Assembly (NCBI GenBank): GCA_947630735.1
Contig: CANRIR010000007.1
Span: forward strand, 1-64,000
From: an uncultured Marvinbryantia sp.
Lineage (GTDB): Bacteria; Bacillota; Clostridia; Lachnospirales; Lachnospiraceae
Direction: 5' to 3'
Length of the DNA: 64,000 bases
Shown: positions 1,032 through 32,945 of the stretch, piece after piece
Layout: the number at the start of each line of letters is the position of its first letter
How positions within the stretch are numbered: the stretch's first letter is position 1
The notes under the pieces: generated by a model
What the model saw: only the letters and a program-made list of their open reading frames with translations
Databases searched by the model: none
Told to the model about the DNA's origin: nothing
Made by a program: the position numbers and the translations under genes

Positions 1032-1050
1032 AAAGAGATTAAAATTTAAC

Positions 1051-1106
1051 GGAAGGAAAAGCCGCGGCGCAAATGGGAGCGGGCCCGCGGCATGGTGTAA
1101 AAAATG
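1051..1106 (+). promoter_or_regulatory. SD-hairpin-AUG repeat element, copy A (short form)
   Basis: GGAAGG then GCCGCGG (1061-1067) ... CCGCGGC (1085-1091), ATGGTGTAA, start codon at 1104; shares CGCAAATGGSAGCGGGCCCGCGGCATGG with copy B. Confidence 0.7.
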
Positions 1107-24933: not shown

Positions 24934-25026
24934 GAAAGGGAGGGCCGCGGGCGATGTTTCCGTCTTTCTTTGCGCCGCGAAACGGCGTCGCAAATGGCAG
25001 CGGGCCCGCGGCATGGGAAAAAAATG
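24934..25026 (+). promoter_or_regulatory. SD-hairpin-AUG repeat element, copy B
   Basis: AAAGGGAGG; GCCGCGGGC 24944-24952 / GCCCGCGGC 25004-25012; inner TTTGCGCCG..CGGCGTCGCAAA; start at 25024. Confidence 0.75.
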
Positions 25027-32850: not shown

Positions 32851-32945
32851 TGAAAGGGAAAGCTGCGGGCATTTGTTCAGGCATTTTTTGCGGCGCAAAA
32901 CGGCGCTGCAGATCTTTGCGGGCCCGCGGCATGGGATAAGAAATG
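32851..32945 (+). promoter_or_regulatory. SD-hairpin-AUG repeat element, copy C
   Basis: GAAAGGGAAA; GCTGCGGGC 32862-32870 / GCCCGCGGC 32922-32930; inner GCGGCGC..GCGCTGC; start at 32943. Confidence 0.75.

Follow-up and report, generated by a model that had tools for sequence, protein, structure and literature searches.

How can translation begin at a gene whose Shine-Dalgarno (SD) sequence is separated from the start codon by a hairpin, and why do unrelated genes share such a leader? The question is raised by three genes in the window, the whole 64,000-nucleotide stretch of DNA analyzed here, which encode a HAMP sensor kinase, a DUF4317 protein, and a GNAT acetyltransferase, and whose leaders (copies A, B, and C) all lie on the forward strand. 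The element to which these leaders belong is dispersed and apparently mobile, and its probable role is that of a portable split ribosome-binding site, with a hairpin bridging the SD and the AUG. Many unrelated genes have the element (about 40-125 nt) abutting their start codon, and with it an SD that the element itself supplies. The SD is followed after 0-4 nt by hairpin P2, which has a variable loop, then by a spacer of ~12 nt carrying the conserved ATGRTACAAANN, and then by the AUG. In the proposed mechanism, folding of P2 would remove the intervening nucleotides, so that the 30S subunit would meet the SD and the AUG at a constant unpaired distance of ~13-14 nt.

A family of leaders at start codons

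In copy B, the SD AAAGGGAGG (24935..24943), with a best anti-SD match of -10.9 kcal/mol compared with -4.2 kcal/mol in the normal zone, is followed by S5, the 5′ arm of the bridging hairpin P2 (GCCGCGGGC, 24944..24952). The loop of exactly 51 nt holds an inner hairpin, P3 (TTTGCGCCGC...GCGTCGCAAA, 24970..24994, ends approximate), and is closed by S3, the 3′ arm of P2 (GCCCGCGGC, 25004..25012). A stem-to-start spacer of 11 nt (25013..25023) leads to the start codon of the DUF4317 gene (25024..25026), for which PF14199 matches from residue 1 of both profile and protein. Copy C consists of a purine-rich SD, GAAAGGGAAA (32852..32861, ends approximate), S5 GCTGCGGGC (32862..32870), a loop also of 51 nt, S3 GCCCGCGGC (32922..32930), and a 12-nt spacer before the start codon of the GNAT acetyltransferase gene (32943..32945; PF00583). 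Copy A is internally shortened. Its purine-rich SD CGGAAGGAAAA (1050..1060) is followed by S5 GCCGCGG (1061..1067) and S3 CCGCGGC (1085..1091), most of the internal loop sequence is gone, leaving a loop far smaller than 51 nt, and a 12-nt spacer precedes the start codon of the HAMP sensor-kinase gene (1104..1106; PF00672 HAMP). All three are partly eroded members of the family, in which the upstream P1 arm of complete copies is missing.

Every position that the initial annotation had given for these copies proved correct on re-reading of the sequence, as did the equal loop length of copies B and C. Its claim that no good SD lies near the ATG also holds, since the best anti-SD match in the -20..-1 zone is -3.1 (A), -4.2 (B), and -4.0 (C) kcal/mol, compared with a median of -8.6 kcal/mol in the same zone of 38 orthologous leaders from sister species. 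Taken alone, the three window copies are only suggestive of a real element. All three share the 17-mer GCGGGCCCGCGGCATGG without a mismatch, and with up to three mismatches it has 4 window matches vs 1.0 expected, a count that is not overwhelming by itself. Single-sequence folding z-scores are modest relative to shuffles (-0.6, -1.3, and -2.9), and no match to an Rfam family was found in the window.

The source genome (G000), the window's own assembly, is an incomplete draft of 2.26 Mb that is 79% complete. To judge by the very large size of its family and by DUF4317, the host is probably a member of the Lachnospiraceae. Comparison of copy B with this genome by blast revealed more copies before nth and a GH2 gene, and a covariance model built from four of its copies recovered 14, with E-values from 7e-24 to 6e-6. 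All 14 matches end exactly at a start ATG. The target genes, identified by profile in some cases and by eye in others, encode DUF4317, GNAT, the HAMP sensor kinase, Nth, a product on contig 21, a lipoprotein, IlvD, GreA, a membrane protein, GH2, a 32-aa membrane protein, TyrS, DnaK, and XylB. A pattern search for the spacer consensus added two copies, before pstB-like and GH3-like genes (named by eye), for a total of at least 16. Thus, the copies at this range of E-values establish a real family, and the three copies originally described stand, though not as the full number.

The source genome contains two DnaK genes (L151 on G000:C15, and G000:C14:9838), and the closest sister orthologues of the element-bearing dnaK (G001 and G002; 81-82%) begin with TTG. 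A remnant at G000:C45:8120-8221 (L153) has the SD, S5, and loop sequence without S3 or a start codon, and scores an E-value of about 1.4.

In other genomes, the distribution of the element is patchy. The covariance model found it in none of the seven other genomes of the same genus. Among 397 genomes of the bacterial family, searched with the 14-copy model under strict screening filters, it was found in four, and full scoring at E<=0.001 gave 27 copies in G036, 4 in G148, 2 in G230, and 1 in G177. G036, which belongs to another genus, has about 39 copies once spacer-pattern finds are added, while the few remaining copies are spread over two or three further genera. A search of 392 genomes of the class, again with strict filters, matched the window's own genome only. 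Targets outside the source genome include argG, hpt, and rpiB, identified by profile, and gmk, leuD, glgP, queA, an acyl carrier protein gene, and others named by eye. The initial annotation had held that mostly intergenic matches would speak against the element; over all genomes examined, 48 of 49 covariance-model matches at E<=0.001 end exactly at a start codon, which lies about 9-14 nt past the stem.

A match in G351 (E=3.5e-4) is off the start codon and was rejected as chance, given that about 0.4 matches are expected from 397 genomes at E<=0.001 each. An exact 16-mer was also rejected as a family marker, as the matches listed are mostly to unrelated GC-rich genomes, with one Lachnospiraceae match that lies inside other sequence. 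No Rfam match was found for the window or the family loci; a GA-cis RNA (RF02987) at L162:6-90, above its gathering score, is unrelated to the element.

The resemblance among the leaders might be ascribed to chance or to GC-rich noise, given that a short exact pattern arises randomly in many GC-rich genomes and that the folding scores are modest. However, this explanation has almost no probability left, because it is refuted by model E-values down to 7e-24, by the placement of 14/14 copies at start codons, by the absence of the element from seven sister genomes, and by its recovery in other genera.

Pairing and spacing between SD and start codon

The initial annotation had taken pairing to be retained between copies, and covariation bears this out. 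In the 14-copy alignment from the source genome, 98% of outer-stem cells are paired, and at one position the pair is GC in 5 copies, GU in 5, and AU in 4. None of 500 shuffles and none of the slid controls reaches the covariation score of this alignment, though the score is not a probability since the copies are related and the alignment was fitted to the structure. Across 48 copies, outer-stem pair 4 is GC in 18, AU in 18, and CG in 6. Within a copy, the two arms pair in 96% of cells, a figure somewhat inflated by picking arms for best pairing, compared with 66-78% when arms are exchanged between G000 and G036.

Natural variants extend this pattern. Several copies have tiny stems (GCC-AAA-GGC, GCC-AGA-GGC, and GCCG-GTAAA-CGGC), while in metK (TGCGGAA-GGG-TTCCGCA) and an argF-like gene (CCGC-GTAT-GCGG) a stem of unrelated sequence occupies the same slot. 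Across the family, the hairpin sequence varies while pairing persists, either through compensatory changes or through a wholly different stem. Two copies have no hairpin at all, one before a pcrA-like gene in G036 (AAAGG-CATGATACAAAAT-ATG, spacing 13 nt) and one before the GH3 gene in the source genome (AAAGG-GCATGGTATAAAAT-ATG, spacing 14 nt). Their spacing equals the effective spacing of hairpin copies. In the internally deleted copy before the pstB-like gene (L290, G000:C13), S3 CCTGC pairs with GCAGG beside an apparent old SD, suggesting that a new bridging stem may derive from flanking DNA.

Spacing was compared over a tabulated set of 64 copies, 62 with an insert and two without a hairpin, in which SDs were assigned by hand curation and counts are not independent since the copies are related to each other. 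The best anti-SD match has a median of -3.1 kcal/mol in the -20..-1 zone vs -8.6 kcal/mol farther upstream, where the greater length of the zone is a bias in favor of an upstream SD. The 38 orthologous leaders from sister species have a normal SD at a spacing of 6 nt. Counted linearly, 13-105 nt (mean 62, sd 24) separate the end of the SD from the ATG, whereas the minimum-energy folds leave 13.5 nt (sd 1.9) unpaired, a distance that does not correlate with linear length (rho 0.08). In 49 of the 62 copies with an insert, a single hairpin has one foot no more than 4 nt from the SD and the other 10-14 nt before the ATG, where dinucleotide shuffles expect 2.9. The remaining 13 miss this strict layout, among them four differently arranged copies in G148. 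Compared with shuffles, the unpaired-distance test by itself gives no signal, because shuffled sequences fold too, and thus only the spread and the foot placement carry weight.

Such bridging has a precedent in bacteriophage T4, where structure between the SD and AUG of genes 25 and 38 cuts the spacing from 27 to 11 nt and from 22 to 5 nt, respectively, and where disrupting the structure lowers initiation (PMC3014915). Two features of a split site of this type are found in the element as well. There is a far SD without an adequate near one, dnaK being a partial exception with GGAG near its ATG, and in the computed folds an SD-AUG helix cuts the spacing to a usable range. The effective spacing of 13-14 nt exceeds the usual ~6 nt and is near the 11 nt of gene 25. 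In contrast to the T4 sites, which belong to single phage genes, have spacers of 22 and 27 nt, and are neither repeated nor mobile, the element has an insert of up to about 90 nt, stands before dozens of bacterial genes, and may form a second helix. From these folds, ribosomes would be expected to use the element's SD with the hairpin folded.

Another explanation, which is quite improbable, is that the distal SD is not used, and that translation starts at an AUG within the spacer (GGCAUGG) or independently of an SD, with the hairpin affecting RNA stability only. A leader hairpin could indeed protect RNA, and the spacer AUG is present in 31/64 copies, in frame and open in 21. Yet the other 33 lack it, in a further 10 it is closed or not in frame, in the hairpin-free copies it would lie only 1-2 nt from the SD, and family profiles start at the downstream AUG, making the spacer AUG unlikely as the true start. 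An in-frame start 4-13 nt past the SD exists in only 1/64 copies. In addition, this explanation accounts for neither the distal SD nor the constant effective spacing.

If bridging by P2 is correct, the family is a natural library, in which about 64 copies span insert lengths of 0-90 nt at a constant effective spacing and open the old question of 30S tolerance of structure between SD and AUG to direct tests. Programs that call start codons by an SD within 20 nt could mis-annotate element-bearing genes. No dispersed version of a hairpin-bridged SD-AUG was found in the open-access papers searched. Hairpin bridging is already known from single phage genes; the new aspect would be a dispersed, lineage-specific family that supplies it.

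Apparent insertion into ribosome-binding sites

Sister species carry ordinary leaders at the same genes, with the SD ~6 nt from the ATG in the orthologues inspected. An empty site is seen at greA, where G003 and the source genome align through promoter and leader as far as GGAAGGTGTAG. The source genome then has about 107 nt extra between the old SD and the ATG, at which homology resumes. Similarly, the gap between the MATE gene and nth is about 95 nt in the source genome vs about 25-29 nt in two sisters. In several other copies, an old SD (GAGGAG, GGAGG, or AAAGGGAG) is retained directly 5′ of the element. Thus, the element seems to slot into the short gap between SD and ATG, bringing a new SD, and it presumably moves as a unit. 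If so, bacterial ribosome-binding sites could be replaced wholesale by a moving part, at dnaK, tyrS, greA, ilvD, and many other genes. The G003 nth leader, GGAAACTGCGGGGGATAAAAATG (L252), may be a deletion scar, given its likeness to the 5′ portion of the element.

It is quite possible, though somewhat short of probable, that the element is a selfish palindromic repeat of the MITE/REP type, which lands in the spacer of ribosome-binding sites and is tolerated there because it is purine-rich and loops out, with no role for the host. Its multiple copies and insertion polymorphism among relatives are those of a MITE/REP-like repeat, and the absence from all sister genomes, the functionally unrelated targets, the empty site at greA, and the many internal deletion derivatives all agree with this explanation. 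Like BOX, RUP, and SPRITE of pneumococcus, Correia elements, and REP/MITE repeats, the element is short, palindromic, multicopy, and patchy, with deletion derivatives (PMC3049150 and general knowledge). However, those repeats are spread over intergenic DNA, as a random repeat should also populate neutral intergenic sites, whereas nearly all recognizable copies of the element end at a start codon and bring an SD that the gene appears to use. Decayed copies away from a start codon are few, namely the remnant on G000:C45 and one in an htpG-like leader of G036.

By eye, neither terminal inverted repeats nor a target duplication was seen at greA, where the ends of the element are approximate. A Y1/RAYT transposase was considered as the mobilizer and found no support, as it also occurs in element-free sisters, is absent in G148, and is not flanked by the element. 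Searches for a carrier found none in plasmid, phage, and viral-contig collections, as plasmids and phages gave no match and the one viral-contig match, inside a phage coding region, was attributed to chance. A selfish repeat of this kind itself needs bridging, and is therefore compatible with the split-site mechanism.

The decayed copy in the htpG-like leader (L323, G036:C27:30900-31500; L310, G036:C112:330-580) lacks an SD and lies 3′ of a CIRCE-like inverted repeat and 5′ of an intact ordinary SD. This leader is nearly identical on the two G036 contigs.

The second helix P1

In complete copies, the initial stretch of the hairpin loop can pair with an arm that lies 5′ of the SD (AAGATTGAAAAA or a variant), giving a second helix, P1, with the SD in its loop. 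P1 covaries, as the arms are GATTG:CAATC in 8 copies, GAGTG:CACTC in 7, and GTTTG:CAAAC in 2, with few mixed sets, and both main versions are present within G036. The energies of the nested P1 and P2 forms differ by 0-9 kcal/mol, a small gap that usually favors P1. Since S5 runs nearly into the P1 partner, P1 and P2 may stack into an H-type pseudoknot whose loop 1 contains the SD. Should the two helices be unable to coexist, they would instead act as a switch, because the P1 form keeps the SD far from the AUG. That P1 forms such a pseudoknot with P2, or competes with it as an on/off switch, is a conjecture for complete copies; it does not apply to the window copies, in which P1 has been lost.

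Pseudoknotted translational control is found in preQ1 riboswitches and the leaders of ribosomal-protein operons, and the element would resemble these if its SD does lie in the loop of a pseudoknot. Unlike in these leaders, the core hairpin lies between the SD and the AUG rather than over the SD, the targets are too diverse for one metabolite, and there is no Rfam match.

It is rather doubtful that the family is a riboregulator regulon, in which P1 and P2, or a protein or ligand reading them, switch the translation of many genes together. The covariation of P1, the small energy differences between the nested forms, and the position of the SD within the P1 loop are in keeping with a regulon. However, the targets share no pathway, the loop contents are not conserved, and many copies, including the three in the window, lack P1 yet have P2. 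The retention of P2 in P1-less copies suggests that bridging is the core function and P1 an optional layer. A broader scheme, in which a mobile family specifically targets the gap between SD and start, swaps in a split site able to form a pseudoknot, and so brings dozens of housekeeping genes under a common P1/P2 switch, is unlikely. The two possibilities that had been offered at the outset, a riboregulator or a looped-out mobile repeat, are both compatible with the split-site reading, with the empty site pointing to insertion and the second covarying helix to possible regulation. Two P1-less copies, before the GH2 gene and xylB (L148 and L152), are preceded on their 5′ side by a palindrome, ATCATGRYCTGC...GCAGRYCATGAT, which is perhaps another small repeat or a terminator.
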